From positions 20,970,001-21,034,000 of the forward strand of contig NC_080581.1 of NCBI RefSeq assembly GCF_029962835.1: a stretch of 64,000 nt of DNA, in the 5' to 3' direction. The notes beneath the pieces are model-generated. The model saw nothing but the letters and a program-made list of their open reading frames with translations, was not told the DNA's origin and did not search any database. Shown piece by piece: positions 8,936-55,690 of the stretch. Source of the stretch: Magnolia sinica. Taxonomy: Eukaryota > Streptophyta > Magnoliopsida > Magnoliales > Magnoliaceae. The position numbers were made by a program, and so were the translations under genes. The stretch's first letter is position 1, and the number at the start of each line of letters is the position of its first letter.

Positions 8936-8936
8936 T

Positions 8937-20964: not shown

Positions 20965-22571
20965 AAAGGAATGAATGATATTTATTGTGCTGTGTCTTAA
21001 ATGTATTCAATTAAATTAGTATGTGTAGCACATCAAAACACGCTTGGGATTTGTTAGAAATAACTCATGAGGAAACCAGCATAGTGAAAAGATCCAAGCT
21101 GCAACTCCTAACATCACAATTTGAAAATCTCAGAATAGAGGAGCATGAGACCTTCATGGAATTCTTTACAAAGCTAAACATCATCTGTAATTCCATGGGT
21201 GGATTGGGAGAGAAAGTTCCGGTCCCAAAAATCTATAGGAAGATTCTAAGATCCCTACCGAAACATTTCAACTCAAAAGTAACTACCATTGAAGAATGTA
21301 GGAACATGGACGAAATGAAAGTAGAAGAACTAGTAGGTTCCCTACAAACATTCAAACTTCACTTCAAACCAACTCCTAAATCCAAAAGCAATGCCCTCAA
21401 AGCTGCAAAACACACCATCACTAATGAGGAGGAGAGTGAGAGAGAAAATGAAGATGAGGAAGTGGCTCTCTTGGCTCAAAGGTTCAAATAGTTTTTCAAC
21501 AAAAACCGTGGCCGGCCATACAAAGGCAAACATTTGGACAACAAACACAATATAGGCAAATCTTCTAAAAGGTCCAGAGAGCCTCAGTATTACAACTGTG
21601 GGAAGTTTAGACACTTGTCCATTAAATGTCCCACCAAGAAGACTAAGGGAAAGGCCATGGCAGCCACTTGGTATGACACTGAAGAATCGAACTCCGATTT
21701 CGGTGATTCAGAAAGTGATGGAGACCAGAAATATTTGAAAATACTCATGGCCTCCACACATACAAACATTCCCTTGGAAACTGAGGAAATTGATGAACCA
21801 CAAGCCAAAGAGTCATTTCCATCAGAAGATGAGAAAGAAGAACAAGAGGAAGAAAAAGATAATATACAAGATGCCTATGATCAACTTTATATACATAGCA
21901 TCAACATCCTTAAAAGACTTGGCATTAGTGAAAATAAGAATAAATTACTGCAAATGGATCTGGATAAAACCTTAGAAACCAATACACACATAATTAATGA
22001 TCTTCAGCAATACCACTTAGATAATGATAGGCTAGAAAGAATTAATTCATTTCTCAAATCTGAGTCAATAAAACTAACCAAACAGATTGAACTATTGAAA
22101 GATGAAAACATGCATCTTAAGAATGAAAATCACACACTTATCTTTGATGCAGAAAAATCTAAAAAGTCTGTTGAACTTAGTTACAAAGTCTCCCAAAGTA
22201 GTGTAAAATTAGAAAGACTTTTAAGGATGGGGAGAACTCAAAAAGATAAGAGAGGATTGGGATATGAAAAAGTCAAGACAAGTCCCAATAATGCAGTACC
22301 ATTGATTAAGAAAGTTGCTGCATCAGGAAGCAGTACAAGAGGTACCCTTATTTGTCATTCATGTGGTGACTCGGGTCATAAATTCGAATGCCTCACTATT
22401 GGGAGAACTCAATCCAATTTTGGTTTGAACCTTACAGGAAAATACAAATCAACCGGAAAAATGATACAAACTGTCAAGAGTTCACCAAAGTACATGGCAA
22501 GAGGTAAGCCACTTCTGTCTCCACCTAAAATGACTAAGAAAACGAAGGAGCTACTAAGTCAGGTGACTTAA
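20965..22571 (+). pseudogene. gag: Copia gag, C-terminal part with coiled coil and two zinc knuckles
   Basis: Continuation of the copia gag after the nested element. Early codons contain one stop and one frameshift. From 21021 a UBN2 domain is clear (SKHAWDLLEITHEET, then LRIEEHETFMEFFTKLN). A TAG at 21489 interrupts the same frame, which continues to 22571. The first zinc knuckle (about 21588-21630, YYNCGKFRHLSIKC) has Tyr in place of the first Cys. A long charged coiled-coil segment follows (about 21850-22190). A second knuckle, CHSCGDSGHKFEC, lies near 22352-22390 with shortened spacing (C-X2-C-X4-H-X3-C). The coiled-coil C-terminus fits SIRE-type gag. Stops, the lost ligand and the insertion make it inactive. 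Confidence 0.87.
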
Positions 22572-22684
22572 CTGAATAAAAAAATAGAGAAATTAATGAA
22601 ACAAGGAAAAGTGATTCAATCACCTAACATACCCAGACAAGTTAATAAAGTAAAAGCAACATCTTCAAGGAAACTTGTCACCAA

Positions 22685-23116
22685 ATGGGTAGTGAAAGAA
22701 AAAAAAAATTGCCTAGTAACTCATTCAAGTCAAAAAAAATAGGCAATAATACTAAATGGTACTTAGATAACAGGTACTCAAGACATGTCATGGGTGACAA
22801 AACTATTCTCTCCAACTATTCAAATCTTGATGGTGGGAAGGTCACCTTTGGTGATGGAAGCACCGCTAAGGTACTGGGGCATGGGACTATCATTGGATTA
22901 GAGATGCTCAAAAATGAGAATGCTTTTTGTGTAGAAGGACTGACACATAACCTTCTAAGCATTTCTCAAATATGTGACAACAAGCATGTGGTAACATTCA
23001 ACAAGCTAGAATGCACAATCACAGACCTATCAGGAAAATCAATTATGAAGGGACTACGCACTAGCGATCACTGCTATGTTGTCAAGGGAACCAAAGAGGT
23101 TGATCCATCTACCTAA
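22685..23116 (+). pseudogene. pol: Copia protease remnant
   Basis: After a frameshift from gag the frame reads WYLDNRYSRHVMGD, where a functional copia protease has D-S-G. The catalytic Asp is present but Ser-Gly are replaced by Asn-Arg. Downstream, VTFGDGSTAKVLGHGTI and GLTHNLLSISQICD are the normal protease-to-integrase landmarks. The frame ends at 23116, just where the GAG-pre-integrase region should continue. Everything beyond (integrase, RT, RNase H) is deleted, so this is a dead fragment. Confidence 0.88.
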
Positions 23117-32100: not shown

Positions 32101-33541
32101 ACGGAAGGCATACATAGACAATCTGCATCTAAAGTGGATCCCACAACACAACTGGGTCTCACATATTCTCTCATTAACTAGAAAATAAATCATGATCTCA
32201 AACATAAGAGCCACATGCCAACATTGTACAAATTCCACATTATTTTGGGCTCACAAGCCTCGTGCATAAGTAAAACAAGAAAGCTCAACTATTACGACTT
32301 ATACAATCCAAGTGGACCCCACTTAGTGTGGCCCAACTGAATAGTGGTAGTGTACAAGGCACACTGCCCACTAGGCAATGAGCTTGCCTAACGAGCTTGA
32401 GGTTACCATGGTGGGCTTCTCACTCCCCAATGATCTCTTAGTGTTGGTCCCACTTGGGCCTTAGGGTTGCCTCATTTAGATGAGACCAAGGCCACCCATG
32501 TCTTATGACAACAATTGTGCTACAAGATATGTCCACTATACATTTCACAAGTTAGGTAGCACTAATTTACAAAATATGCTAGGTGGGCCTCATTAGATGA
32601 AGGTATAACCCACTCAAAAAGGCCCACTCAAGATTTTGGGCCCACCATAACCTAGGATTTTACTTCTAAGGTCTAGATGGACCATCATATATATTGGGTA
32701 GGTGGTGAGCACCTTGGATGTAGACCCATACAAATTTCAAGTTAAACAAATTGGCCCCACAATTTCAAGTCAACAGACTTTTTAATGCAGAAATGGTTCC
32801 TAGCCATTTATGGGTCAAGTTTGTGATCATGAGGGGCCCGCATTTGGCGATCGGCTTTTACCTTGTCGTATCCCTACATATGGACTTCAAAACCTATAAG
32901 GTGGGCCTCATTGGTTGAGTGTGTACAATTTACAGTGATGCCCCAAACATGGGTACTTGGAGAAATTGTGCAGGAAATACAGTGTAGAAATAGTTTTTAC
33001 CCGATTTTGAGTACGTCCCACCATCACATGGAGCCACCTTTTGGCATGAGGTCAGGTATCCATGGTAATACTAATATGGCCTTCAAACCCATAAGGTGGG
33101 TCCCACTAGATGCGCATACATAATTTTTTGGCACAAGGCCAAACATGAGAATTTCAAATTTGTGTAGAATTTTCTGCACAACCGTGCTTGGCCCCATTTT
33201 GAGATATGCTCCCAATCATATGGGGTCCTCTTTGGCCTAATTAAATTGCTATTTCTCCAGCCATTTGTATCGGCTAGAAAGTGATGGTGGTAGCCCAATC
33301 CTATCTTGTATGTAGGGTCCACCATCGAGGGCCAAAGTTGGTCCAAAACCTAGAAAATCAGATATGCAGTTTCAAGAATGGATCTATCCCAGCTTTGGGC
33401 CTACTTCTCAAACACTTGGAGGCCATTCCTGATGAAATGGTGGGACATCCCAATAATCTGACATGTGAAATAAACATCCCCCATAGTGGGATCCTTTGTG
33501 AAATTGCGGTAATAGGCCGCAATGCGTCTAATACGGAAGTA
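29137..33541. repeat. Left part of the 29-63 kb solo LTR
   Basis: No gene. AT-rich non-coding DNA with imperfect 'catcatcat'/'atcatgcat' stretches (29600-31740). From about 31790 come GTGGGTCCCAC-type modules (for example near 31945, 32310 and 33090). Short open frames here have no domain or codon bias that I can recognise. Confidence 0.65.
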
Positions 33542-33885
33542 TGATGAAGCTATAGAATGTAGGCTGTCTTATAGGGGGAGGGTGGTGATTAGGATTGATT
33601 AAAAATTATACATATTAAAAACACTAATTGCCTAACTTAGGCTAATTTTCAAATAAACTAAGGCAATATAATAAGGCTTCTAAGCCATTAGAGGGTCCAA
33701 TCACATAGGTTACACTAGATATGCAAGTTAAGCAACTAGCCTATATAAGATAGTGTATATGAGTTTGTGGGATGTGCTACCTATCAATCACTAAGCATTT
33801 ATCTAATCATGTTAGCATAATGTAAACATTCAAAACCAAAAGCAAAATTAAACAATTAGGCAAATGACAATCCCAAACACGATCA

Positions 33886-34220
33886 CACTACGTCAAAATT
33901 ATGGATTTGTGATGCATTTTTGTGACGGACGAATCGCTTGGTTTAACGACGGATTTAATCCATCGCTAATGGAAAAGGTCCGTCGCCAATCCTGTCTTTC
34001 TCGAAAATCCGGTCCAAACGTCAGAATTTTTCGATGGACCAAAATCCGTTGCTGAAATCGGATTTACGACGGATTTTGGTCTGTCATAAAATGGCGACGG
34101 AATAAATCCGTCATAAATTTTAATTGTGCGACAGAATGACCAGCCACAATTTCCCGCCCAAAATAGCAATGCTCAACATTTTTTAGTTGCTTTTTGCAAC
34201 GGATCATGGTCCGTCGTAAA
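33886..34220 (+). repeat. CACTA left subterminal repeat region
   Basis: About ten partial copies, in both orientations, of the motif GCGACGGATTT/AAATCCGTCGC, several abutting as palindromes (for example gacggatttaatccatcgc near 33943). In known CACTA elements such motifs bind the TNPA-type transposase cofactor. Confidence 0.85.
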
Positions 34221-35260
34221 AGGAATTTTGCCTTGAACATTTATTTTTTTTCATTTTTTTTTAGAATATGGTGGAAAATTATGTTTTTTCCTAGTTTAAG
34301 AATTGTTTTTCAATACAAATTTAGTAGTTTAATTGTACATATTTGTATCTAATATTAATTTTTAACAATTGATTGAATGTGAAAAAAAAATAAATTGTTT
34401 TTATATCAAATGAGTGGAAATTATTATTTTTTATTTAAATGATTTGTAATATGACATGAAAAAAAATATTGAGAAGTTAAAAAAATTTAACAATGTTTGA
34501 GAAAAAATGAGATTTTGAAAAAATAAAAATCGTGATTTAATAAAAATCTATTTTGTGGGAAAAAAAATTGAATAAAGTTGATAAGTTTGAAAAAAAGAAT
34601 TTGATTTCTAGAAAAAAAATAATAACCTGAAAAAGAAAATTAAAAAGATTTAAAAAATGTGAAAATTTTGACGATGTTGAAAAATGAAAATATTTTGAAA
34701 AAGAAAATGAGAATTTGTATTTTGAAAAATAAAATATAATTGAGAAGTTCGAAAAAAATGCTTTTTAAAAAAAATGAAGAAATTAGAAGGAATTGAAATT
34801 TTTAAAATTAAACAATATTAAAGAATCGATATTTTAACAAAAAACAAACATTTTGAAATAAAAAAATAAAGAAGTTAGAAAAAATTTGTGATTCTAAAAA
34901 ATAATTGAAAATGTTTAAATTTTGAAATTAAAAGAAAAAGTTATTTATAAAAACATTGAGATTTTGAAAAAAAAAAATATTATTTTAAAAAAGAAATTGA
35001 AAAGTTGAAAACAAAATGATGCTTTTGAAGAAGAAAATTCGGCATTTTGGAATTTTTGAGAAAAAAATTAAAATTTGAGAAAAATTTTGAGATTTTGAAA
35101 ATAAAAATTCAGAATTTGGTTTTTTTTTTTCTGAAATATTTTATAATAAAAATGATATTTTGTTAAAAGTTTTCATGGAAAAATTAAGCGTAAAAAATAT
35201 ACATTTTGAAAAAAAAATGTTATTTTTAAATGGAAATTGAAATTATCTGTGAAAAGGAAA
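34221..35260. repeat. A-rich low-complexity DNA in the CACTA element
   Basis: About 1 kb made of 'gaaaaaaaat'-like runs with 'ttgaaaa' words recurring every 10-30 bases. It has no open frame, no repeat unit of fixed length and no known feature. Confidence 0.6.
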
Positions 35261-35399
35261 ATGTAGCCTGATTAGGATGAGTAACTAGTCAAATTGAGGG
35301 TATTGATCAGTAAAATAGAGTGAATGGACCAAATATATAAAATGGGCCAAATATTGTGGTCAAAATTGTGACCCGGCTTATTAACCTCCCGAGAACCTA

Positions 35400-37210
35400 A
35401 GAATTAATGTTAATAAGTTTTGTGGGCCCCATCATGATGTGTGTCGAACATCAACACTATGGATTTGATGTGTCCCCTTTAGGTTATGAGATATCTCAAA
35501 AATCATCCGTATACGAAACTCAGGTGGGCCATACCATCTAAAACTATGTGAAGACATCCTAAAAAATATAAAAGCACTTGGTGGGGCCCACATGATTTTT
35601 GGATGCGGCTGAAACTTGGTCTGACCCCTCATCTAAGTGGGACACACATAATGAGTGGGTTTGATATGTGAATCATATTTAGGCAATTCCAATATATGAT
35701 TATGAATGTTTTAAGGAAACCCCTCTCACTCCATTTAGGTGAGTTACTAATTACCCTTAGGATACTGGTAAACTCTGTAGGGTCCACCATTATTTATTTA
35801 TTTTATCCAATCCGTTCATCCATGTTAACAGATAATTTCAGGTCTAAAGAACAAAAAGGAAGTATATCCAAAGTTCAAGTGGACCACACCACAGGAAATA
35901 GTGATATTAAACCTCTACCATTGAAAAATTCTTGGAGGCCATAAAAGTTTTGGATCAAGCTGATGTTTGTGTTTTCTCTTCATTCATATCTTTTTGATAT
36001 TATGAATAGGTTAGATGGTAAATAAACATTACTGTGGGCCCAAGAAAAGTACCAACGGTTGAAATCATTATTCCACACTCTTTCGTGTGGCATGGTCCAC
36101 TTGAGTTTTGGATTTACTGAAAATTTGGGATCAACCTACACTGTTCATCCATTTTTCGAGATTATTTTAGAGAATTATCCAAAAAATGAATCATATCTAG
36201 AGATTAAATGGACCACACCACAAATAAGGGGAACGGATTGGCTACTCCCCCTGACACCGGCCAATGGCTGGTGGTCGGTGCTCTGTGGGCCCTAACATGA
36301 TGTATGTGTTTCATCCATGCCATCCATCTATTTTTAAAGATCATCTTATGAGATGAGACCAAAATTGAGGTATATCCCAATCTGAAATGGACCACATTAC
36401 AAGAAACAATGTTGAATGAGCGTCGACCATTAAAAACATTTTGGGGGCCATAAAAGTTTTGGATTGAGATGATTTTTGTTTTTACCCTTCATCTAGGCTT
36501 GTATGACCTAATAAACAGATTGGATGTCAAATAAACCGTGCAATAGGCCTTAGGAGGATTCTAATGATGGATATCCAATCACTAATGTTTTCATGTGGTG
36601 TGGTCTACCTGAGATTTATATACCTCTCATTTTTGGAATAAATCACTAAAATGATATTTAAAAATGGATGAATGTAATGAATGAAATACATACATCATGG
36701 TGGGGCCCACAGGGCACCGACCACCAGCTACGAGGATGGTGTCAAGGGGAGTAGTGAGACTAACTACGGAAGTGATATCAACAAGTTCCATGGCCCCACC
36801 ATGATGTATGTTTTGTATCCACACCTTCCATTCATTTGGAGAGATCATTTTAGGGCAATATCCAAAGAACGAGCTAAATCTAAAGCTCCAGTGGACCCTA
36901 GCACAGAAAACAGTAGGACAGTGAGGCCCACCATTAAAAACTTCTAAAGGCCACAAAAGTTTTAGATCAAGCTAATATTTGTATTTTCCCTTATTTCATG
37001 TCTTTTTTAACTTTTGGAAAGGTTGGATTTCAAATAAACATTATGATGGGCCTTAGGATAGTTTTAACGGTAGGAATCACTCTCCCCACTATTTTATTTG
37101 GTGGGTCCACTACGGATTTTTATTTTGCCTCATTTTTTGGTTCAAACCCTAAAATGATATCTAAAAAATGGATGGATGGTGCGGATATAACACATACATC
37201 ATAGTGGGCC
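35400..37210. repeat. Imperfect tandem copies of a 'gtgggcccaccatgatgtatg' module
   Basis: Three copies of a roughly 450-500-bp module lie in the same orientation, starting near 35770, 36290 and 36790. Each contains, in order, 'gggcccaccatgatgtatgt', a 'ccatccattt..agatcattttag' block, 'aagtggaccacaccacag', 'ggccataaaagttttggatc' and 'ggatgtcaaataaac'. Related blocks occur in the giant LTRs at 6.0-6.3, 10.5-10.7 and 19.0-19.3 kb. No coding capacity. Confidence 0.75.
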
Positions 37211-37335
37211 CACAGAACTTGGTGACGTCTATATCTAAGCCGTGTCCAGAGACGCTCTCGCGCCTTCTCCTCTCTCTATCTCTCTCGCACCCTCTCCTCT
37301 CTCCGTCTCTCTCGCCCTAATCCGACCCTCTCGCA

Positions 37336-37364
37336 CCCTCTCCTCTCTCTCTCTCTCTCTTGCG

Positions 37365-37413
<49 letters not shown>

Positions 37414-37503
37414 CTACTGTTGCCGAATGCCCTACCCATGCACGCCCTCTCTCTCTCTCTCTCTGAAGCTCGGTTGAAGGCTAGCTCATTCACGACCGTG
37501 AGG

Positions 37504-37574
<71 letters not shown>

Positions 37575-37575
37575 C
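37336..37575. repeat. (CT)n microsatellites
   Basis: Three long CT runs (about 37365-37411, 37449-37464 and 37506-37571) separated by short unique sequence. The 400 bases after them show 'gggatttagggattttgg' repeats. Open frames across them encode only Ser/Leu repeats. Confidence 0.95.
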
Positions 37576-37970
37576 TCAATACCAATTTAGGGATTTAGCA
37601 ATTTGTGGATTTCTGATTCGATGTGGACCCTCATTTAGGGATTTGGGGATTTTAGGGCTTATAGATTTGAATGTGGACCCCGAATTGGGGATTTTCTAAT
37701 ATTACAAATTAGGGATTTGGGGATCTTAGAATTTTAGGGATCTTGAGGATTTTAGGGATTTAGGGATCTTGAGGATTTTAATACTTCAAACAGAAAAATA
37801 TATTAACTAGGAGGATTGGAGAGATCCAGAAAGCAATATAGTTGCAAGTTTGCCATCACAAAAGAATTACAGGAATGCCATTACAAATCATTCCTCAACA
37901 AGTATAACTTTGTCTGTTAATATGCACAGGTGATTGATCTTTCTCAAATTATCTGGGTTTGTAATTGCAG

Positions 37971-39011
37971 TTGGGCCATGACAGAGTTCGGTTGGGATGT
38001 TAAATACGCTTGGGCCCAAGTTCTCGTCTCCAAGGTAAACTACACATTTGGCATTTTTTTTTCATACTATGAAATGTGTGTAATTTGCAGTCCAATTCTC
38101 TATTGAAATTTGAAATTGAGATGAGTTGTTATTGCTTCTGGCTATCCAAAAATGGTTGATTGTTTTTTCTTTTCACTTCCTCGCAATGCAGTTTCTAATG
38201 CAAGGGAAGGGGGCTCAGTACTCATCAGTCTTCCAAAGATATGAGCAAAAGGCAAAGTTCTTCATGTGTTCATGCCTCAGAAAAGGCAGCTAGAATTTAC
38301 AGAGAACACCTGGAGGACTACTCTATTGCCAGAGGTGGAACAACTTGCAATTCATATTGTGATATAGTTTTTATTTTGCATCTTTATAAGCTAATATGGA
38401 TGCAAGAAATTTTTAATTCTCTTTCAAAATCATAACATCTTTACAGACATTTTGTTGTGGTTGGGCTTCTTTTTTTTCTCCTGTTCATGTCCACCGCCAT
38501 TTCTAAATAACATAAAAGTGGATTAAATATCAAAAATTTCTGGTGTGTAAGTTTTCATCTCGAATGTCTCATTTAAAATGATATGTTCAATTGAATGCTA
38601 TCTCAGGTAGACTACATACTCAGAGACAACCCGAGAACTACAAGCTACATGGTGGGATATGGAAGCAATTTCCCACAACAAGTTCATCATCGCGGTTCTT
38701 CCTTTGTTTCCGTCAAGGTTGATCCTTCATTCATGTGTTGCAGAGAAGGTTACAACACCTGGTATTCGAGGAAGGCCAGCGATCCAAATCTTCTTGTGGG
38801 TGCAATTGTCGGTGGACCTGATGCCTATGACAACTTTGCTGATGAGAGGGAAAATTATGAACAGACAGAACCTGCAACTTATAACAATGCACCACTTCTT
38901 GGTGTATTGGCTCGTCTTAATGGCGAAAATAGCGGACTTAACCAACTCCTTCCAGTTATATTTTGTAAAAGAAGTATTGTAGATGATATGTTTGCTCCAA
39001 ATGCTTCATGA
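37971..39011 (+). pseudogene. GH9 endo-1,4-beta-glucanase, captured 3' fragment
   Basis: Three exon-like pieces with AG/GT borders. 37971-38034 encodes WAMTEFGWDVKYAWAQVLVS (family: MTEFGWDNKYAG, the last Gly now Trp). 38192-about 38350 encodes FLMQGKGAQYSSVFQRYEQK, then a TAG at 38291, then TPGGLLYCQRWNNLQF. 38607-39011 encodes VDYILRDNPRTTSYMVGYGS, VHHRGSS, GGPDAYDNFADERENYEQ/TEPA and APLLGVLARLNG. The catalytic His of VHHRG and the Asp/Asp/Glu of the D-x-E-R-x-N-Y-x-Q-x-E-P region are intact. The N-terminal half with the DAGD motif, and the exon between NNLQF and VDYIL, are absent. The enzyme family cleaves beta-1,4-glucans in cell walls; ATYNNAPLLG...NQLLPV is closest to secreted class C members, but no CBM49 follows. 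It is a pseudogene fragment carried by the CACTA element. Confidence 0.9.
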
Positions 39012-40308
39012 GTGTTGTTTGTAGTAATTCTTGTCACTAGTCATGCCTGTCCTTAATTGCATATCCGTTTTGTTTTTAAAAGTTCTTAAGACATTGGAAA
39101 TATTGTCAACGAAGTTACTGGGAAAGGGTACCTGTTGAAGGTTGTACTTCATCTTTCAGCTCTTTCTGAAATGAGAATTTTTATCTTCTTCGATTATTAA
39201 TGTTGATGCTGGTTCTTGTTCAATGTCTCAAAATTTGTGCAAAGAGGAATGCTCTTATGCGGCATACTGTGTAAAACTTCTAAGCAGTACTCTCTGCTCA
39301 TAGTGGACGTGGCTAACACATGCTAACATAAGTCGCTTCATATTCACTTCTTCAGTTACATTTGCAAATACAGTCATCCTAGCTTGAGACTATCAACCAA
39401 ACTCATCTTAGCCTGTGATTACTTTTTATTTTCAATGGTTGGCATGCTATTATTTTTTCTTTAACTTGTAGGAAAACTCTCAAATGATTAAAATTGTATG
39501 TCCTTGAGCGACTTATGTTAGCATGACCAGATACTTTCTAAATGTTACAGTTTTCTGCTATTAGCATACAACTTGGTCTGTAATTGGTTGGAGTGAGTTT
39601 TTCAGTTTTACTATGTTTTCACGCAACAAGTTGTATTCAACACTGGGGTTCCCGGCGTAGATTTTCTTGCTATTCCAATCAACAATGTTATTGTGGACAT
39701 TACTGAAACCATACATATCTGCATTCAGTTTATACATTGTTTGATTTTTTTTCTCTGGGATGTTAGCATGTAGCTTGGCAAAGTCCACATACACCTCTTA
39801 TGTTCACCTCTATCTGTGGTCCGATGTGTATGTGCATGACATCTGACCTGTGCATCAGGTGTGCCCCACTGTGAGCTGACTGTCCTCTTCTTTGGGACAG
39901 ATCACCTAACTGCATTATGCCTGGCTTGGATGTCCAACACAAGTGCTAGGTTGGCACATGCAATCATGTGTAATGCCAAGCTTTGATTACAATAATTGTC
40001 GGATGTTGATTCATTATTGTGGTTTCTGATGTGAAGTTTGCGATGTTTCAGCAAAGCAGGAACATCAGAGAAGGCAATGGTTATAGGATTGGGAGGGCTC
40101 AATCTTTTTGGAGTTATTGTTCTCAATAGCATGTTAAATTATGTTTTCCTATTCACCCTAAATTTTACTTTCCACTTTCTCTGTTGGTTGATCTTCTATT
40201 CACACTTCTCATATCTATTTGAAGGAATGTTGCAGTTTTGCCAGGGGGATTTATTTCATTTGTTTCTGACATATTTCCTCTACTTTAGGTATGGTCCGAT
40301 GTTTTGTT

Positions 40309-40357
<49 letters not shown>

Positions 40358-41666
40358 AAGTGCTTAATTCGTTTTACACCACATGTGCCAACATGGCAAA
40401 TAGGTGTAAGATCCAACCTGTCCATCAGGTTAATCTGAACTCGTACATCTTTTCCCAAAAATAAAAATACTCCACTCAGCATGTGGGCCTCAATATTGGA
40501 AACAGGTGAATGTACTAGAATACTTTCAGCTAAAATTTTCAGAGCTGTACATTTGTTTTGATAACCGTGGCCAACCTGACGAGTGGTTCAACCTGAATCC
40601 TGGGTTAGGGCATCAATAGTGTTAAAGGTTTGTTAGTTTGCATTGTAATAGAGATTGATGTTCTGACTTATCTAGAACAAGCTCTCCACAGACTCTTTAC
40701 GTTGAAATTTCTTCACAAAATTGCTTATTGGACTTTGATCATTATATTCTTCTGCAGAAAGCTTTGAAGAAAGAGCAGCTCTTGTGGCAACTTTTAAACA
40801 TTGAAAAGGATTTGAAGAAGTCAGATTTTCATAATAAACTATTATCAAGCAATCTGTTTTCAAAGAAAAAAAAAACTTATTAGTAGAGATACCAAAACAG
40901 CCTCTTTGTATAATTTAATTAAGGGGTTAAAATGATACTTTCTTGTGTAGAATCTGACGTGTAGATATTTTCTGAAATAAACAAAGTTCTAGACATTTGG
41001 TAAACTATACGAATAGTTTTGAGTCTAAAACAGAGTTTTGCTAACTGTAGGTAGACCTTATTGAATGGGCCAGGCCAAAAGTCTAATTGAATGATCTATG
41101 AGTAAATTCAGTTAGAAGTATTAGACTATTAAACAGCCTCCAAAAGGAGTCAGATCTGGACAGATTGAATTGCAGAATTGTACTTATAGTAAAGACATTA
41201 TGGTGTTTAGACTGTATAGTAAAGTTGCTTTTTTACACCCCATATTTCATTTAATTTGATGATACGTTCTGCTTTCTCAATTGTTTGTTTTCTATCCTTT
41301 GTTCTGATGTAATGTTAATTTTCAAATGAGGGTCGAGGGTCTTTCAGCAAGTAAGACAGCACATTTCTCTGTTATCTTGGATGTAGGATCCATGTTGTCA
41401 CTTAATCATTTGTTGTTATTGGTTCTTCTCCCCTCCATATTTTTGCATGTAACTTATTGTGGGCTTCAACAAGACGCATTTCATTTTTATCCCATCGTTG
41501 GAAAACTGAGCAGATCTTTGTGTTCTCATACTTAGTGTTCTCATATTTTGTGCCTTAGATGGTGTCTATTTCTTGTTGTTGTAGACTTTCTTTCACATCA
41601 ACAAGTTACATGCATATCCAGCCTGATTAGATTTTTTATTTTTTTATTTTTTTTGCACGTCTTCAG
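39012..41666. other. CACTA interior without recognisable genes
   Basis: AT-rich, intron-like or intergenic sequence between the GH9 and SSRP1 pieces. It includes a (TA)n tract at 40311-40354 and a polypyrimidine run before the SSRP1 exon. A short open stretch near 40050-40130 has exon-like borders but no family I can name. Confidence 0.55.
40311..40354. repeat. (TA)n microsatellite
   Basis: About 22 AT units inside the CACTA element. Confidence 0.97.
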
Positions 41667-44446
41667 GGGTTAATTCATGAAGTCTTCCCTATAATCTTGC
41701 GTGGTTTATGTGACACCAGAAATATTAGACCAGGAAAATTTTGTAGTTGTCAAGATGGATATGCAGTTAAGTCATCATTAAAAGCCGAAGACGGAGTTCT
41801 TTATCCACTCGAGAAAAGCTTCTTCTTTCTACCCAAGCCTCCTACTCTCATTTCCCATGAGGAGGTATATCTCCCTAAAATTACTATCATTCCTATGCAA
41901 ATTAACTCTTTGGATGTGCATGGTGAGCGTGCCTGTTTGCGGATGTGCATATGAGACATGCCATCCTATTTAGAGAGTGGCGTGGTCTGTTCTTGATTCA
42001 TTCCCTATCCAGATTGAATATGTAGAGTTCCAGATAGAATATGTCGAGTTCAAGAGGCTTGTAGATTCTAGGAGATTGAGCATATGTCATGGGGGTTATC
42101 TTTCTGCTTTATACTCAGGTTTGCCCATTCAATTGTGAGTAGTATTCGATAGGGAGCTAATTTATTTTAGTTTTTCTATGTAGGTTGTACTTTATAAAAC
42201 AAATTGGATCAATGTTGTGAAGACTGTGGTGCCTGAAGGCCAGTTACTGTGTAAACATTATACCAGGGTTTGTATTTCATACCTTAACTAGAGTACTTTA
42301 AATATAACTTTTGAGTACAACACTTTGATTTTTATTGCTATTTTGAATTGTATTCCTGATAATGTCTATTGTTCATGATTTCATAATGCATTGTCATTAC
42401 AGTTATTGAAATCAAAGAAATATTATGGCATATGCAAGAAGATTTGGCATCATTATGATGGTGGTAGTTGGGTGAGACCTTATGATCTCTACACAGATTT
42501 TGATTCTTTCCTTTTCACAAAAAAAATAATAATAAAATAAAATAAAATTATTCATGACACTGTTACTTGGTCTCGTTCAATAAAAATAAGTACGTTGTGA
42601 TTCATGTAAAGTTTGGGTTCATGCAGAGTGTGACAAAATTTACACCAAAGTTTTCAAGGTTTGACCTTATGTAAATGCTGATTTGGTCTCATGTTCATAA
42701 AAATGCACAATGTTTATAAATCACATCCTCTCGATGTTTATCTCTCTGAAATTGTGAAAGACTGTTTACCGACTGAGTTTTTCATATGTGAATGCAGACC
42801 CCTAAATGAATGGGAAGTAGATCTCCCAATCTTGCCTTATGGCAAGAACTGTGGGGTCCACTGTGTTGCATGTGTTTTATACACCCTGTCCATCCCTTTT
42901 GCTAGCTCATTTTCGAGCATAAGCCCCAAAATGAAGTAGATCCCAAGCTCATGTGGACTGCAAACAAGGTGATTAAATTGTTTGGCATTTCATGCTTGAG
43001 ACCTTTAACTGTTTGCAAATTTCACATTTCAGATAAGACATGATAGTTATTATCTTAATATTGGTTCATGTTGAAGGCTATATCTTGTTATTATTTTACA
43101 GAAATTACGAACCTGTAATTTGAGAATATTAGGTTTGTAACACTTATGAGGCTTGCCCAATTGCTTATGCAGACGAAATCATCCCTAAAATAGTTTGAGA
43201 TTCTTATGAGGTTCTTATGAGGCTTGCCCAATTGCTAGAGTATATACCAGACGAAATCATCCCTAGAATAGTTTGAGATTCTTATGAGGCTTGCCCAATT
43301 GCTTATGCAGCTAATCACTTGCTGTAAAACTTGTAGCTTCTTACTTTCTCCGTACCCTGAGGGAGAGACTCCATTCATAGGATCCTGTTTGGCTAAGTCA
43401 TCAACCTACAACAAGCTTGACTTCCTTATGAATATGGGAAGCAAATAATACACAATGTTGATAATAACATCAAAGGTACATCAAAACTTCCATGGCCTTG
43501 TTCATTGTTTCATGCAGTCAGTCCTATGGAATAAAAACCAACTTCAATTTCCTACTTTCATCAGCTTGAGGACACAAACATGTTTAACAATCATTTTTAT
43601 CTTTACAAGTATGGTTCCACAGCTGAACATGGAGTTGAGTTTTGTTTTAAAAAAAAAAAAAAAACTATCGCCGCTTTGTTTAGACCATGCCCTATTTGCT
43701 TTTCACAGTGGAAAAGGGTTGAAAATTATGAACTTTGGAGCAAGCCAACAACAGACTAATGGTGTTGAAGATGCTCTTCAAGCTGCTGATGATGATGTTG
43801 TAGATCCACATCTTGAACGGATTAAAAACAAAGCTGTTGTGAGGAAAGCGATGAAGAGGTACTCTTAGTCATCGGTGATCACTGTATCATTTTATCCCAT
43901 ATGAAATATGGGTACTTAATGATAGCTTTCATGGATTCATTATTTTCAGGATGAAGATTTTGTTGTGGAGAAGGATGATGGAGGCTCTCCTACTAATGAT
44001 TTTAGAGACGAAGAATCAGATGCTAGTGAAAATGGTGATGACAAAGAAGTAAACTACATCGACTCCCTTGTTTTTACTCCTTACCTTGTTTCAATAGAAG
44101 TTGGGTAACTAGAAAGTTCTGATACTTGATTTTGACATGGCGATTTATGTAATCGTCATTGCTGTTTTAGAATGTTTTGGTGCTTTTGATTACAGGCTAT
44201 AGCTTTTTCATCAATGTTTGGCCATGAAAGTTAATACTTCTTTCTCTTTTCTTCCCATTTCAGAAGCCTCTCAAGAAGGAAGTTAAGAAAGAAGCAGCTA
44301 CTCCTAAGGCATCTTCTTCTAAGAGGAAATCCAAGGATGGAGATGAAGATGGTTCAAAGAAGAGAAAACCAAAGAAGAAAAAGGATCCTAGTGCACCAAA
44401 GAGAGCTATGTCTGCTTTCATGTTCTTCTCAAAAGCTGAAAGAGAT
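41667..44446 (+). pseudogene. SSRP1: SSRP1 (FACT complex subunit), captured multi-exon fragment
   Basis: Exon-like blocks with proper splice borders occur in the right order. 41667-41864 encodes [20 protein letters not shown], then [20 protein letters not shown] (middle/PH domain). 42013 onward encodes IEYVEF twice, then degrades. 43709-43858 encodes [10 protein letters not shown] and [14 protein letters not shown]. 43950-44048 encodes DEDFVVEKDDGGSPTND plus an acidic tract. 44264-44446 encodes a Lys-rich linker and [20 protein letters not shown], the start of the HMG box, ending at a GT donor. The N-terminal domain, the exon between VEFKR and GKGLK, and the rest of the HMG box are missing. 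SSRP1 pairs with SPT16 as a histone chaperone. Here it is a broken copy inside the CACTA element, same strand as the GH9 and MAP65 pieces. Confidence 0.9.
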
Positions 44447-45201
44447 GTAGGTTGTTTTTGGTATGCCATGCTGGTTTTTGCTTCATGTTACCTTTAAAAG
44501 TTGAGTCCTACAATGTGCTTGGGTGGTCACAGTTCCCAAAGCAAAAAGGCATGCTGCTGCCAAAATCTGGTTAAAGTAGCACGCCAAAACGTGGTTATGC
44601 GAATCCACTCTGCCTTGCTCACATCCAAACCACATTTTAAAGAATCTCAGCCAAAATGTCTCTGTTACCTAAGAAGGGTGGCGAGTATTGAGTATGGCAA
44701 GTTAAAGAGTTTGTAGGATATGAGTACCTAAAGGGCTGTTTGTTTTACAAATTACCACAATATGGTAACGTAAATATGTAATGATTATCTAAATCTTTTT
44801 TTTAAAGACCATAATACCCCCATTTTCATGTGCAGGTGTTTCTATTACATCCCACCTCATATGTAGTGGTGGTGACTACATCTGTGACCGTTAATCTATA
44901 TGCCTTCCCTGTTTTTGAAGTTTTCCATTGAGGCGGATTGCGTGGTCACCGAACACTATCGAACTTCATGGTAGCAAGCCTATGTGAAGCCACAGAAGTT
45001 TCGGGTAAGCCGGTAGATCCAAAAATTCAAAACATTCTATCCGACCCCATCATGAGACAGGTATCCTTTTAGAAGTTTTTATGGTGGTCATGGTTGTGGC
45101 ATTATCTGTTAATACTGTAAAAACTTCACAGTTTTATGTTGGTTATCATTGGTCATGACATCATTTGTCATTTTTCTGATGATGCCATCTCTTCTATGTA
45201 G

Positions 45202-45308
45202 GAGTGATTGACCCCTCATGCATCGTGGAACAACTTGAGGCTCAAATTGCAAAGGTGAAAGAAGAAGCTTTTAGCAGGAAAGAGATTCTATCGAAGGTTG
45301 AAAGTTGA
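45202..45308 (+). pseudogene. MAP65 (PRC1/Ase1 family) single-exon fragment
   Basis: After an AG acceptor the frame reads [20 protein letters not shown] and [14 protein letters not shown], then a stop. The [18 protein letters not shown] core is a strongly conserved stretch of plant MAP65 microtubule cross-linkers, just before the microtubule-binding region. In family members KVEKW(L/M)AACEEE follows; here the sequence leaves the family after KVE, consistent with a decayed donor site. No other MAP65 exon is recognised nearby. At 35 residues the assignment rests on one motif; an unrelated coiled coil is the alternative. Confidence 0.7.
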
Positions 45309-45854
45309 TACTCACAAACCATGCTAAGCAACATATAGCAACTCCAAAGGTGCTTCATCCCCTTAAGTGTGTTTCGTTTATTCCAACCATTTCTGTAAGA
45401 TGATGCAACCAATTTATTGTCTCCATGTTGTACTTGCATGCCTAAATTTGTTTCAGCACGGTTTCTACCCTACAAACCATGATCACGGGACCCTACTTAG
45501 CTTATTTGATGTTATTTAACAAATGAACATTTAATATCAGGTCCAAAACAGCAACCTCAGAGAACAGATTTCAACCATACTGGCTATGACCAGCTAGTTT
45601 GCAGCAGCCTGGCACAATAAACTAGCAGTAACAAGCCAGAGAGCCAGATTTAGTATCTTAACTGATTCCTTTAGTATTAATAGACCGTTAACTATTTGAT
45701 TGGAATTGTGCTGATTATTGTCTTGATGAATGTTAAATGGGTGAAACATGATTACGATATTATTAAACAATCATGTGAATTATTTTTTGAATGACTATCA
45801 GGTGTAAGATAAAAAAAAATACAAACGAACCTGACAATTTTATTTTTTTTTAAT

Positions 45855-46211
45855 TCGTAGCTATTTTAGTGACGAACCAAATCCGTCGCTAATTTCTGAA
45901 CCGAGAATGGACGACGGATTGGAGGTCCATCGCTCTCCTCATATTAGCGACGGATGTTATCCGTCGCCAATATTTTTAATGACGAAAAATTCGGGTGGTT
46001 TTTTCTGAATTTCAGTGACGGATTTCTATTTTTTGTGACTGATCTTATCCGTTACTATCATGCGATGGACCTTATCCGTCGTAGATTAAACAATGGATTT
46101 TATCCATCGAAAAAGAAAAATGACCCAATAAACAGCGACAGACGAAATCCATCGTTTATTTGGTTTTACAATGGATTTGGTCCGTCGTAAATTCACGATT
46201 TTGGTGTAGTA
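45855..46211 (+). repeat. CACTA right subterminal repeat region and terminal repeat
   Basis: About ten copies of GCGACGGAT/ATCCGTCGC variants in both orientations (for example gcgacggatgttatccgtcgc near 45950), ending in the inverse of the left terminus. It mirrors 33886-34220. Confidence 0.87.
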
Positions 46212-47911
46212 TCATATATAGTGGTTCGGCTACGTGCCCACTCTACTCCCGACGGACTCACTCTCCTAAAGTATACTAGATTTCACTATCGGAAGTTTTA
46301 AATCAGGTTTACCTCAAACCTTTACATCCCTACACAAGAACTCAAAAATTTATGTCCTACGTAAGAGCAAAGGTCTTACACAAAAACCTAGACTTTATGT
46401 CCCACACAAGGACAATGGTTCGAATCTTGAACCTGACAATTTAGGCTACACAAGCCAAGGTCCTACACAATAACTTGAATTTATGCACTGCATAAGAGTA
46501 AGGGTCTAACTCCTGAACCCAACAATTTAGGCCCTACACAAGAGCCAAGTTCCTACATAAGAACTTGGTGGTTTAGGCCCTACACAAGAGCCAAGGTCCT
46601 GATCCCGAACCTAATATTTATGCCCTACACAAAAGCAAGGGTCCTACTCCCGAACCTGACATGTTTACTCCCGTCGGAAGCCTACAAAAGGACCTGGGTT
46701 GGTTTCTCCTTATGTTAACCAACAACCTTGGTCCTACATAAGGACCACAAATTTAGGACATAGGCCAAGGTACTACAAAAAAACCTAGGTGAGTTTGAAA
46801 ACAAACTCTTGCACTCCAATCTACACAAGGTTGGAGTACAACTTATTGACTCTTACAATTGACAACTTGTTGGATTGATCCCCTTTTGTCACGCCTCTTG
46901 GGTTGCATGATCTCTGCTCTCCCGTACTTCAGTCAGCTACCCGATGCTCCCCCGATCATGTCGCCGCGCGCCGCTTTGCCAAGGCTTTAACTCCACGATC
47001 AACAACCTTGCATGTAATACTTCTTCAAGATGAACAAGGTGATGAGAGTGGGTTGAATCTCTCATAACTAATAGGACGTTTTTTTCCTATTGGATTCAAC
47101 TAGATGGGTCTCCTATAAGATTTAAACAAAGGTTTAGCAAGATTGCTCAAGTCCAATCTCTAAGAAATGCGAGAGCTCAAGCACATCTCAATAATGAGGT
47201 TGAAATCCTCACTAGAGTTGTAATCTCAAAGGAGATAGCTTATAACTCAATGAAGTAGAAGCTTAGGATATAGGATTTGCATACATAATCACCCTACCTT
47301 CTATTGCTCTAAAAACCCATCAAAATGCCCAAGAACCAAATGCCCTTTATAAAAAGTTCAAACTCCAACGACTATAGCACGGGCAGAAAATGGCTTTGTC
47401 GATGCCATTGAAGGGTTCCCCAATACCATTGAAATATCTAGAAAAAAATGATGTTTGCTTCCTAGACGGATCTGGACATCTTTCGATTGCATCGACCCAA
47501 TCTTCAATGCCATTGAAGATCATACTTTGATGTCATCGAAGTGGCTTCGATGCCATCGAGAGAATCAAAGAAAAATCCAAAAACCTTGCTGGACAATCTA
47601 GATCCCAAATCGATGCCATCGAATTGTCCTTGATGCCATCGAATTGTCCTCGATGCCGTCGAGATTTCCATCATAAAATCTAGTTTGGTTGTTGGACATC
47701 CCTAACTATTTCTTGATTGCATCGGATAGGTCTTCGATGTCATCGAAGAGTATTCGATGACAGCTTGATGTCATCGAACATCACTTGGAATCTGTTGTTT
47801 TGGGCTGTCTTCTACACGGTAGATTCGCACCTCTTCTAGCTTTGTTTATCATGTTTTTCTTGTTCTCTTAAGACTAAGGATGATCAAATTTATATTCTTA
47901 TTGAGTCAAAA
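46212..47911 (-). repeat. Right part of the reversed SIRE-like LTR (R/U5 and U3)
   Basis: 46215-46880 is the reverse complement of the 'tgtgtagg...cctagagtc' region of the copia LTR. 47340-47780 is its palindrome-rich U3, here as TCGATGCCATCGA variants. A TATA candidate on the minus strand (TTTATAAAG) lies at 47345-47353. No gene is present. Confidence 0.75.
47345..47353 (-). promoter_or_regulatory. Candidate TATA box of the reversed SIRE-like LTR
   Basis: Minus strand TTTATAAAG, at the same distance from the palindrome region as TATATAAA in the copia LTRs. Confidence 0.4.
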
Positions 47912-51038: not shown

Positions 51039-54000
51039 TCATACCTTCTCATAATCTTCAAGGATTTGAGGGTAGCTCTTCCTGACCTCAGCTTCAGATT
51101 CCCAAGTAGCCTCTTCCTCACCATGATGCGTCTATAGTACCTTCACAAAAGGGATAACCTTGCTACGCAATACCTGCTCCTTCCTGTCAAGAATACGCGT
51201 CGGTCACAGTACATAAGTGAAATCCTCACTCAACTGCACGTGCTCCCAACTGATAATATGCGAAGGATCAGGAACGTACTTCTTCAGCATAGAAACATGA
51301 AATACGTTATGCACGCCCGCAAGAGGTGTGGGCAAGGCAAGGCGGTATGCTACCGCTCTCACTCGATCTAGAACTTGAAATGGACCAATAAATCTCGGCG
51401 TCAGCTTTCCCTTTTTACCGAACCGCAGAACTCCCTTCATAAGAGAGACCTTCAGAAACACATGGTCTCCAACCTCAAACTCAAGCGGTCGACGCCTCGT
51501 ATCAGCATAACTCTTCTGCTTGCTCTGCGCTGTCAGAAGTCGACGTCGAATGATGTCAACCTTCTCTGAAGTCACCTGCACCAATTCTAGGCCAAGCAAA
51601 CTACGCTCACCAATTTCTGCCCAACAATGTGGTGCTCTGCACGGGCGACCATACAGCGCCTCATAGGGAGCCATGCCGATACTCTCCTAGAAACTGTTAT
51701 TATACGCGAACTCTGCATACTGAAGACAATCATCCCAACTGTCCTTGAAATCCAAAACACAAGCTTGCAACATATCTTCTAGGACCTGATTCACGCGCTC
51801 CGTCTGCCCATCTGTTTGCGGATGAAACGCGGTGCTGAACTTCAGTTTCACACCCATCGCTTCTTGGATACGAGTCCAGAAGATAGATGTAAAACGAGTG
51901 TCTCTATCAGATACAATCTCCAGGGGAACTCCATGCAGACGTACTATCTCCTTGATATACAACCTAGCCAACTCGTCTGCAGAGTTAGTGACTCTAATCG
52001 GTAAGAAATGTGCCGACTTCGTTAATCGGTCGACGATCACCCAAATAGAATCATATCCCTTTCTCGTCCTCGGCAACCCAGAAATAAAATTCATAGAGAT
52101 GAAGTCCCACTTCCATTCAGCTATGGGCATGGGCTGCAACAATCTAGGAGGTCGGAGATGCTCTGCCTTGACCTGCTGGCACGTGAGACAACGAGAAACA
52201 AATTCAGCAATCTGGACCTTCATATTGTCCCACCAATAAGACCTCTTCATTTCCTGATACATCTTCGTACTACCTGGATGCATCGCAAGTTTAGAACTAT
52301 GGGCTAACTCGAGAACCTCTCGTCTCAAGTCAGGGATGTCAGGAACACATAACCGGCCACGAAAACGTAAGCTCCCATCAGAACTAACACTCCAGTCGGA
52401 GTTCTCATCTGTACCAACCCGCTTCCTCATCTTCACAAAAAGCTCATTATCTGCCTGAGCTGCAACGATCCTCTCGTTGATAAGGGGTTGTACACGAATG
52501 TGTGCGATAATCTCATACGGCTCAACCACCGTAAGCTTCTGCTCAAAATCGCGCACGAACTCCAACATATCCCACTCTGCTATCATCAGCGAAGCCGTAA
52601 ACTCAATAGCCTTCTTGCGACTCAACGTATCTGCCATAAGGTTCGCCTTGCCCGGATGGTAAGAAACATCGAACATAAAGTCCTTCAATGTTTTCATCCA
52701 TCTACGCTGCCTCATATTCAAATCACGCTGCGTGAAAATATACTTAAGGCTCTTGTGGTCACAAAAGAGCTCGAACTCCTCACCATAGAGGTAATGTCTC
52801 CAAAGCTTTAATGCGAATATGACAGCTGCTAACTCCAGGTCGTGCGTAGGGTAATTCTCTTCGTGTTTCCTCAACTAACGCGAAGCATAAGTAATCACCC
52901 TGTCCTTCTGCATAAGGACACAACCCAGGCCAACGCGAGAGGCGTCAGTATATATAATATACTTAACCCCTTGCTCTGGCAATACTAGCACAGGGGCGGA
53001 CGTCAACTTGTCCTTCAGCTCCTGAAAAGCTAACTCCGCTTGCTCATTCCAAGCAAACATCAAATCTTTCCGTGTCAGTTGCGACAACGGTCTGGCAATC
53101 TTCGAGAAGTCTTAAATGAAGCGTCGATAATAGCCTGCAAGACCCAGAAAACTCCTTACCTCAGTAACTGAACCAGGCTGCTTCCAGTCCTGCACTGCAG
53201 CTACCTTGGCAAGATCGACAGCTATCCCTTCCTTGGACACCACATGTCCTAGGAACTTGACTTCCTCTTTCCAGAAATCACACTTCTTGAACTGCGCGAA
53301 AAGCTAATTCTTCCTAAGAGTATCCAAAACCGCTCTTAAGTGCTCCTCGTGTTCTTCCCGGCTCGCCGAATAAATCAAGATGTCATCGATAAAGACAATG
53401 ACGAATCGGAACAGGAATGGCCGAAACACCCTGTTCATCAGATCCATGAACACGGCCGGTGCGTTCGTAAGACCGAATGACATCACAAGGAACTCATAAT
53501 GACCGAAGCTAGTCCTGAAAGCAGTCTTCTGCACGTCCCCATCCTTGATGCGCAACTGATGATACCCTGACTGCAGATCAACCTTCGAAAAGTATCGTGC
53601 CCCCTTCAATTGATCAAACAGATCATCAATCCTGGGCAAAGGGTACTTATTCTTCACAGTTACCAAATTCAGCCTGCGATAATCAATACATAATCGCAAG
53701 GAACCATCCTTCTTCTTCACAAACAAAACAGGTGCTCCCCAAGGAGACACACTAGGCCGAATAAAATCCAAATCCAGCAAACCATCTATCTGCTTCCTTA
53801 ACTCCTCCATTTCACTCGTAGGCATACGATAGATGGGTAAAGAAATGGGCGCCGCACCAGGCATGAGGTCGATAGCAAAATCAATCTCACGCTGAGGAGG
53901 TAATCCAGGAATCGACTCAAACACATCTTTAAACTCCCGAACTACCGGCGTACTAACCAACGCCGATTCAGCCATACTCTCCAACAGAGAAGAATAATAA

Positions 54001-54480
54001 TCAATACGAAGAGGGTAACTGACCTGAACTGGGAAAGTAACAGTCTCGCCCTCAGGTCCATGGATCGTCACTGATCTAGCTTCATAATCAATCTCAGCTC
54101 GCATCCTCGTGAGCCAATCCATACCCATAATAACATCGTAATGATAAAGCGGTACGACTAAGAAATCAACATGGATCGATCCACTTCCAAGATCGACCAA
54201 ACAATTCATACAACGCTTGCCCAAAGCAGAGGAAATCCCCGTAGCGGTAGTAAGCGTTACTCCTTGCATGGAAACAGATCTCAAACCCAAACGCCTAACT
54301 ACCGCATAAGATATAAGAGAAGTAGTGGACCCTGTATCCACTAACATAGAAACGGGAATACCTTCAATGTGCGCTGTTACCTCGAAGGACCTCGGCACCA
54401 AGTCAGACATAGGCGCTTCAGCTGAAAGTGCATGAACTCGAGCCTGCTGCTGACGATTCGGCGGAGGAACCATGGGCCAC
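51039..54480 (-). pseudogene. pol: Gypsy pol: protease, RT, RNase H, integrase, chromodomain remnant
   Basis: One reading frame over 3.4 kb, broken only by stops (near 53301, 53115, 52872, 51686, 51202 and 51133). Protease: [16 protein letters not shown] intact (about 54330). [37 protein letters not shown] and FIDDILIYS (YxDD box as FIDD). RNase H: YTDASRVGLG, HDLELAAV, CDHKSL and MADTLSRK. Integrase: H-H-C-C zinc finger (LAHSSKLAMHP...CLTCQQ); the first catalytic Asp is replaced by Asn in FISMNFISGLP (codon at 52089-52091), while VSDRDTRF and the Glu of TERVNQVLE remain. The C-terminal HHGEEEATWE stretch matches the chromodomain of Tekay/Del elements, with stops before it. The TAG at 54480 separates it from gag in the same frame. 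Confidence 0.93.
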
Positions 54481-55690
54481 TAAGGTGGCCTGAAGCTAGG
54501 AACTGCAGCTCTGAAGGATGGATGAGCTGGCGCTGATCGAAGAGGTGGATGAGAGATAACCTGAGGCATCGGACGGCTAATCCTTTGCGGTGGAGTAAAA
54601 CCACTGGCTCGCATACGGGAGAAGCAAAAATGGTCCAAATGCCCTGTCTTCTCACAATAAGAACAGCGAACATCAGCTCTCATCTGCTGAACGGGCGGCG
54701 CTGAACGCCTAGGAGGAGAATCTGCTCGCTGCCTTTTGCCGAGAAAAGGTGCACCCTGAAAATCCGGTCGCGGCCTAGGAACCATCGGTGCTCGCATGCT
54801 GGACGACCTATCCCCGTCCTGCTCTGCTCGCAAGGACATGCTCACCAGCTCCGCGTAAGAAGAAATGCTAGCACAGCAAATCTTCGATCGGATCTCAGGT
54901 CTCAATCCCTCAGAGAAACGCCGCATCCTCATCGGCTGATCGCCCAGGATCAAAGGAGCATACCAACCCAGCTTAGTAAACCGGTTCTCATACTCCGTCA
55001 CCGACAGCCCTCCCTGGCGGAGTCGAAGGAACTCACTCTCCTTCTCATGTCGGTACGTAACCGGAAATACTTCTCGTGGAAGCGTGCCTCAAACGCCTGC
55101 CACGACCACTCAAAACCTTCCTCGACAGTGCGAAGAACACTGTCCCACCACAGACTGACCTCCTTCTTAAACATGAAGGAGGCAAGCTCAACCTGCTCAA
55201 CCTCAAAGTAGTGCAGCGGTCTCAATATCTTAGAGATGCGGTCGATCCAATACTCGACCTCCTAGGGTCTATGAGAACCCGCAAAAGTAGGAGGTTGTAA
55301 GCGCTGGAATCACTCAAAAGTGCCGCTGGCACTGGCACTCCCAGATGGAGGCATAGGTGAAACAGGTGGAGTCGCCCCCACTGACTGAGCAAAGATGCCA
55401 GCCATGGAAGAGAGGAACTCCTGCTGCTGCTGCTGCTACTGCTGTTGAATCTGCTGCTGCTGCATCAACAGCATCATCTGCTCAAACATATCAGTAGACG
55501 AAGTAGATGAAGGCGCACGGCTCGGCTCAGGAACTGAGGGCGTGACTGGAGGAGCCATAGGTGTAGGCCCAACACCGGCATGAGACGGACCCGCCTGAGG
55601 ATCTGACTGGCTATCGCTCAAGGGAGGAACCCCAGCAAGCGACTCAATCAAGGAGAGACGGACCGAAGACTTCGAACCCTTAGGAGGCAT
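54480..55690 (-). pseudogene. gag: Gypsy gag with Gln-rich N-terminus and zinc knuckle
   Basis: Start at 55690 (MPPKGSKSSVRLSLIE). A Pro/Ser-rich stretch and a poly-Gln tract follow; one Gln codon is now TAG (about 55433). Two further stops lie near 55309 and 55262. The capsid region reads VEYWIDRISKILRPLHYFEV and KKEVSLWWDSVL, shifts frame near 55020, and continues VTEYENRFTKLGWYAP. The nucleocapsid knuckle CSYCEKTGHLDHFC (about 54650-54610) has all four ligands. The product would form the virus-like particle. It ends at a TAG (54480) beyond which pol is in the same frame. Confidence 0.92.

Follow-up and report, generated by a model that had tools for sequence, protein, structure and literature searches.

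How did pieces of several unrelated host genes come to lie side by side, on one strand, within 12.3 kb of the genome of Magnolia sinica? The locus belongs to a window of 64,000 nucleotides, C9:20970001-21034000 (C1, C2 and so on denote contigs of the same genome; positions without a contig name are those of the window). A preliminary description had read 33886-46211 as a CACTA element that lacks a transposase and carries transduplicated pieces of host genes, and its ends, its target-site duplication (TSD), Pfam and gene matches support that reading. We are confident that it belongs among the Pack-CACTA elements, as a CACTA (En/Spm) transposon that is non-autonomous and holds host gene pieces captured stepwise. 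The cargo is DNA with introns from four firmly recognised genes, a GH9 endoglucanase, an At5g03900-like gene, SSRP1 and an ATX3/4/5-type gene, and probably from a fifth, MAP65. In the genome searches the best of the first-look candidates were scored, and the figures are given with each search.

The whole element lies on the plus strand and measures 12,326 bp. Its left terminus at 33886, CACTACGTCAAAAT, starts with an exact CACTA, and its right terminus at 46211, read as the reverse complement, is TACTACACCAAAAT and starts with TACTA, one base off. A TCA stands on each side (33883-33885 and 46212-46214), so that the element has the 3-bp TSD and the inverted termini of CACTA (En/Spm) transposons. 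The 13-bp terminal pattern CACTACNYCAAAA has 17 matches with up to two mismatches in the window against 11.8 expected; with no or one mismatch it occurs in the whole window only at the element's two ends (0 and 1 mismatches). The subterminal regions carry arrays of short repeats in both orientations, another hallmark of the CACTA (En/Spm) type. GACGGAT occurs 11 times in the window, nine of them in the element ends, and a total of 11 was reached in 3 of 100 shuffles. Of six GACGGA-type 7-mers the left 415 bp holds 9 and the right 361 bp 11, as against 1 in the intervening 11,550 bp; the 33,885 bp upstream of the element hold 7 and the 17,789 bp downstream 4. The termini, the TSD and the mirrored GACGGAT repeats had all been noted before, and all are present apart from the single base at the right end. 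The left terminal inverted repeat and its cluster, delimited by sequence and genome matches, occupy 33886-34221; the remainder of the left arm (34222-37259), AT-rich and then repeat-like and non-coding, is common to elements at C14:28050149 and C17:49124825. The right arm, with its cluster and terminal inverted repeat (45316-46211), is common to C2:77629092, C5:8591866 and C1:13848435.

For an empty-site test, 180 bp of each flank were joined minus one TCA and searched against the genome (40 of 4933 candidates scored). Of the 45 matches, 41 span the join (82-87% identity), and the remaining four are short pieces of the right flank only. Because 41 of 45 cross the join, we conclude that a single insertion into a dispersed repeat took place and that the two ends belong together. 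The flanks themselves (33706-33885 and 46215-46394) form one dispersed repeat, for which the genome gives 4933 first-look candidates and which may be part of a long terminal repeat retrotransposon. Searching with the element ends, as had been suggested, recovered further family members, at least 39 per end: the left end has 39 other full-size places at 75-85% identity (40 of 623 candidates scored), the right end 39 other full-size places (40 of 868), and by eye the two pair in the same orientation at four other places, 6.1, 10.1, 10.3 and 13.6 kb apart (C10:4353917-4359992, C5:29055847-29065920, C2:35785054-35795352 and C6:32132480-32146035). The possibility that the ends stem from two elements, named in advance as what could overturn the description, failed on these crossings and pairs. 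It is scarcely conceivable that two half-elements of different origin, or a decayed cluster of host genes, mimic one element, as the departure of the right terminal base from CACTA might suggest, since the uninterrupted sites, the agreeing TSDs and the pairing of the ends elsewhere oppose it, the joined-flank matches ruling out unrelated ends and the likely sources, which sit on different chromosomes, ruling out a gene cluster.

No Pfam transposase family, the TNP2 type included, was found in the six frames of the element, where a transposase had been considered, and the element is therefore regarded as non-autonomous; 33886-37100 matches no Pfam family in six frames, and 33000-47000 has no Rfam match at gathering thresholds. 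A TNP2-type transposase acting in trans would bind the ends and subterminal repeats. The genome is rich in Transposase_21 (150 of 1669 first-look candidates scored), and one copy, in an open frame of 774 codons at C11:57914213-57914842, is followed 6.6 kb downstream by a family right end, at C11:57907251, in the same orientation. When 40 ends and 150 transposases were placed uniformly at random, 50 of 3000 rounds produced such a pair within 10 kb. At the next nearest right end, C2:44434933, the closest listed transposase (150 of 1669 scored) is 12.6 kb away on the opposite strand. The stretch C11:57907251-57914842 is a candidate autonomous partner or helper.

Within the arms, the GH9 endoglucanase piece (37971-38955) comprises three exons with introns (37971-38034, one from 38192, and 38607-38955). 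It matches GH9 in Pfam at E 1.1e-30, another frame at 5.2e-5 being under the curated cut-off, and is 91.0% identical (949/1043) to a gene-like locus at C5:3278422-3279753 that holds further GH9 domain matches. After a 25-bp filler, ATATTTTGTAAAAGAAGTATTGTAG (38958-38982), comes a piece of an At5g03900-like gene, a chloroplast gene of the iron-sulfur cluster biosynthesis family (38983-40618), with intron DNA and two exons (about 40047-40135, and 40226-40288, which ends in a stop). Parts of it are 93-98% identical to C19:22718828-22721373, which holds five collinear pieces of the Magnolia sinica protein P0121. Cargo without a named source follows (40619-41663), of which 41190-41520 is 96% identical to C16:65808532 and 40659-40880 matches no Pfam family. 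In Pfam the C19 and C16 loci show nothing but a weak reverse-transcriptase match, and the C19 gene was named by protein comparison. Parts of 42791-43685 and 44447-45015 are likewise without a named source.

The SSRP1 piece is in two parts, the first (41664-41867) covering residues 317-384 of a 644-residue SSRP1 and the second (43686-44446) residues 425-577 (425-516, then 516-577) and reaching into the HMG box. Pfam finds the Rtt106-like middle domain at E 6.6e-7, and a protein search gave 510 of 517 candidates at E<=0.001; among the 120 listed, specific names are mostly FACT subunit SSRP1 and none is Magnolia-named. A search with PF08512 returned the element and two genes read by eye as SPT16, not SSRP1. 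Between the two parts lies a piece of an ATX3/4/5-type histone-lysine N-methyltransferase gene (42055-42790) with three exons of the PHD region (42217-42270, 42400-42477 and 42590-42658). The gene-like locus C3:126696808 is 91.8% identical to it over 571 aligned bases (85% with gaps). A protein search with that locus gave 141 of 145 candidates at E<=0.01, and many among the 120 listed bear the name ATX3, ATX4, ATX5 or histone-lysine N-methyltransferase, the others being hypothetical or unnamed; a PDB search with 29 residues of the ATX piece gave no match. The last piece (45016-45321) is tentatively MAP65-like: its exon at about 45204-45296, which we take to resemble plant MAP65, matches PF03999 at E 0.0086 and 15.3 bits against a cut-off of 26.9, so that MAP65 is probably, on weak evidence, among the captured genes. 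This 306-bp piece has further copies at C3:49714546 and C14:59317758, and MAP65 genes are present on C11, C18, C6, C16, C15 and C5.

Of the three genes originally named, GH9 and SSRP1 are firm and MAP65 is weak, while the count was too low, the At5g03900-like and ATX3/4/5 pieces having been overlooked. The single orientation described for the pieces holds, every recognised one being on the plus strand. No contiguous host locus that could have held them before insertion was found; the best gene-like matches of the GH9, At5g03900-like and ATX pieces are on C5, C19 and C3. Likely sources elsewhere in the genome, a mark of Pack-CACTA elements, were thus identified for GH9 (C5, 91%), At5g03900-like (C19, 93-98%) and ATX (C3, 91.8%) DNA. 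The proposed search for donors yielded a candidate for GH9 on C5 and no source for SSRP1.

The copies of this cargo elsewhere bear on how it was assembled. A query with 37580-45850 gave 70 matches (40 of 5658 candidates scored), and 16 places, in 20 ten-kb stretches, were compared. Copy A (C9:20916486-20919562), about 84 kb upstream on the same strand, matches 37643-40743 at 96%. Copy B (C2:77629092 to 77634886, minus strand) matches 40131-46210, and copy C (C5:8588856-8591866) matches 42740-46210 with a gap, both with the right terminus. Copy D (C14:28050149-28059601) has the left terminus, the left arm, part of the At5g03900 block and the SSRP1/ATX DNA. At C17:49124825 the left terminus and left arm extend to about 37967, followed by different DNA. 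The cargo is thus present in more than one copy, as in Pack-CACTA families, next to the right terminus in B and C and the left in D; among the copies read, the 12.3-kb element alone shows both ends with this cargo.

Several marks are shared among these copies. A 32-bp deletion in an ATX exon is common to the element, B, D and C17:37605191 and is lacking in the C3 locus; an internal GH9 exon/intron deletion is common to the element and A; and the filler that borders the At5g03900 block on its left is common to the element, A and D. The module before the filler is GH9 in the element and A; in D it is a module with a piece of citrate synthase, NEYFVKRKLYPNLVFYSG (C14:28053707-28057332), a weak assignment made from a Pfam match at E 0.0015, under the cut-off, and by eye. 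Since deletions and filler are shared while GH9 or citrate synthase precedes the filler, the right-hand block is common and the leader-side module differs. Related copies that share arms and core and hold different genes in one slot argue for stepwise acquisition. A fusion of an A-like left half with a B-like right half was considered and set aside, because 40131-40743 is present in all three of A, B and the element; A gives way to a satellite-like array and B to unrelated DNA, and truncation explains the two halves equally well. By eye, an array of the AAATGGGCC type, similar to tandem arrays elsewhere in the window, adjoins the right break of A.

We propose the following course of events. 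A core of At5g03900-like and SSRP1/ATX DNA is common to several copies, with MAP65-like DNA in those that kept the right side. The slot beside the leader would have received GH9 in the lineage of the element and A and citrate synthase in that of D, or one module may have replaced the other, the direction of change being deduced from the copies. The pieces were probably joined by the published route, in which neighbouring insertions of the same family are mobilised as a unit, with deletions between them. At least three separate acquisitions had been inferred; the copy comparison points to steps, and some pieces, SSRP1 and MAP65 in particular, may have been joined before they entered the element lineage, as a locus on C2 described below suggests.

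The cargo is preceded by a CT-rich stretch at 37260-37502, which we read as a 5' untranslated exon. It ends in the splice donor GTGAG|GTATCT, with the GT at 37503, and is followed by a putative intron (37503-37967) that is common to the C17:49124825 copy up to about 37967. The donor is kept in all four aligned copies, namely the element, A, D and C17:49124825, and every recognised gene piece lies downstream in the sense direction, an arrangement from which we infer that the leader may supply a promoter and first exon. Transcription from it would give a spliced, sense, chimeric RNA, probably non-coding. Chimeric or antisense RNA against the parent genes had been envisaged; as the cargo is sense to the family leader, chimeric sense RNA is the natural prediction and antisense RNA is not.

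A functional or selected chimeric gene within the element is very unlikely. The conserved donor upstream, the sense pieces and several retained splice sites would favour one, as would GH9 exon 3, which is still open and has dN 0.031 and dS 0.175 against the C5 gene, though much of this divergence may predate capture. Between the element and A, however, the same exon has 3 synonymous and 5 replacement changes (dS 0.041, dN 0.020), so that there is little sign of constraint, the changes being few. GH9 exon 2 is interrupted by a stop codon, at which position the C5 gene encodes Arg and A encodes Trp, and exon 3 has lost the splice donor that should follow it (TT in the element, GT in A and the C5 gene); given that stop and lost splice site, a working GH9 protein is unlikely. 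The stop in the second At5g03900-like exon and the 32-bp ATX-exon deletion point the same way.

Several observations weigh against a CACTA element with stepwise capture. The outermost base of the right end is not C; within the 20 kb read at copy A no end is visible, and a single end is seen in each of B, C and D; and, by eye, no listed transposase (150 of 1669 candidates scored) stands within 10 kb of any of the 40 left-end places. GH9 exon 3 is further from the C5 gene (dS 0.175) than the At5g03900 part is from its source (K 0.025); the true donor may therefore be another gene, and the C5 locus may be only a relative of it. Cargo and arms also diverge to different degrees. Kimura two-parameter (K2P) distances of the cargo from the element are 0.029 for A, 0.050 for B, 0.047-0.051 for D and 0.025 for the At5g03900 source, and those of the arms (compared over 45322-46211 and 33886-35251 with B, C and D) are higher, namely 0.108 for B and 0.090 for C in the right arm and 0.135 for D at the left end. 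Arm distances are about twice the cargo distances or more in the same copies, which vertical descent alone does not explain. The arms may mutate faster, for example as methylated CG-rich repeats, or cargo may have passed between elements with different arms, in which case arms and cargo would not have one common history.

SSRP1 poses a further difficulty, since a full-length SSRP1 query found no ordinary SSRP1 gene in the genome (69 of 69 candidates scored, 51 matches). Residues 1-115, 165-312 and 387-424 had no genome match in this search; residues 317-385 appear only in the element, D and B, and residues 116-164 occur in isolation on C12, C3 and C15. For the 516-577 region there are 33 rows, including the element and C; one of them (C15, 34% identity) probably belongs to a different HMG protein. 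Outside the element, B and C, at most two adjacent SSRP1 exons lie together, on C1 and C4. At C15:64356501-64356900, as in the genome overall, SSRP1 is visible only as scattered fragments. The gene is considered essential in plants, and an assembly gap is therefore the likeliest explanation. For annotation this is a warning, since the SSRP1 middle-domain exon, present here only in three cargo copies, could be mis-called as a gene.

A possible, though less probable, account is that a mosaic of genes was built elsewhere, for example by a Helitron or another transposon, and was taken in as one or two blocks or exchanged between arms. At C2:9049345-9049764 an SSRP1 and a MAP65 piece are separated by about 30 bp, next to a kinesin-like piece, and the 1.5 kb read there (C2:9048701-9050200) has no match to the CACTA arms, which also counts against capture within the family. 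That stretch is itself a mosaic of an SSRP1 HMG-exon piece, a MAP65 exon piece, a kinesin-5-like piece (by eye) and coding-like DNA without a name. The many places of the SSRP1 516-577 region and the greater divergence of the arms than of the cargo in the same copies fit a ready-made mosaic as well, as do C1:27499001 and C4:42289001, which have 1.27 kb in common, including the SSRP1 516-577 exon, yet no family ends within 10 kb. However, B and C join the SSRP1-to-MAP65 DNA to the family right arm and terminus and D joins SSRP1/ATX to the left arm, so that the block has been within CACTA elements more than once, and the alternation of GH9 and citrate synthase at one slot needs later steps. A Helitron would have a 5' TC, a 3' hairpin with CTRR and an insertion between A and T that leaves no duplication; the 12.3 kb as a whole has a TSD and CACTA-type ends, with which a Helitron nested in the cargo would still be compatible. 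Stepwise capture by a Pack-CACTA element remains our preferred reading. More speculatively, and with considerable doubt, the family could be a standing exon-shuffling cassette with its own promoter, CT-rich first exon, donor and a slot in which gene modules are swapped, the cargo passing between arms; if so, new spliced chimeric transcripts would arise by module swap instead of one-off capture.

The gene-capturing habit of CACTA elements is already known, multi-gene capture included, from soybean and maize. According to passages of PMC1947982, Tgm-Express1, a CACTA element of 5.7 kb found in soybean in the F3H allele wp, contains fragments of five genes, and splicing of their exons yields chimeric transcripts. 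It resembles the magnolia element in its CACTA ends and in carrying intron-exon pieces of several unrelated host genes. It differs in lying in a gene intron under a host promoter, whereas the 12.3-kb magnolia element lies in a dispersed repeat, has its own family leader and has relatives with different cargo; cargo splicing is alternative in soybean and predicted here. Pack-TYPE elements of Arabidopsis, maize and rice may draw on more than one source locus, above all maize Pack-CACTA, and fusion of neighbouring insertions has been proposed for them, as passages of PMC8903248 and PMC13317346 state. Like those described in PMC8903248, the magnolia element is non-autonomous, with conserved ends and a gene-derived interior from more than one source locus; unlike them, it is much longer than the examples there with given lengths and has one gene piece nested in another and one slot with varying modules. 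Grapevine Cactavine-5, in the relevant passages of PMC2528002, is likewise a CACTA family with transduplicated host DNA, a PPR gene piece of coding and 3' untranslated sequence. That piece lies downstream of a transposase frame in the opposite orientation, whereas the magnolia element has no transposase and its cargo is sense to the leader. A CACTA transposase architecture is mentioned for Magnolia ashei in a passage of PMC8978399; judged by titles, abstract openings and passages, none of the open-access papers listed in capped searches describes such an element for Magnolia. What the magnolia case adds is an unusually readable history, for copies within one magnoliid genome record the steps in common deletions, a 25-bp filler and two gene modules at one junction, which makes a stepwise or fusion model testable.

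The surrounding window is rich in repeats. Large tandem-repeat arrays, including AATCGGCCTCGAT and TCAAATGGGCCGAT types, occupy 4401-10185 and 17303-18921. By eye, Copia-type gag-like frames with a zinc knuckle lie on the plus strand at 21015-23116, and Ty3/gypsy-type retrotransposon frames for protease, reverse transcriptase and integrase lie on the minus strand at 51204-55088.

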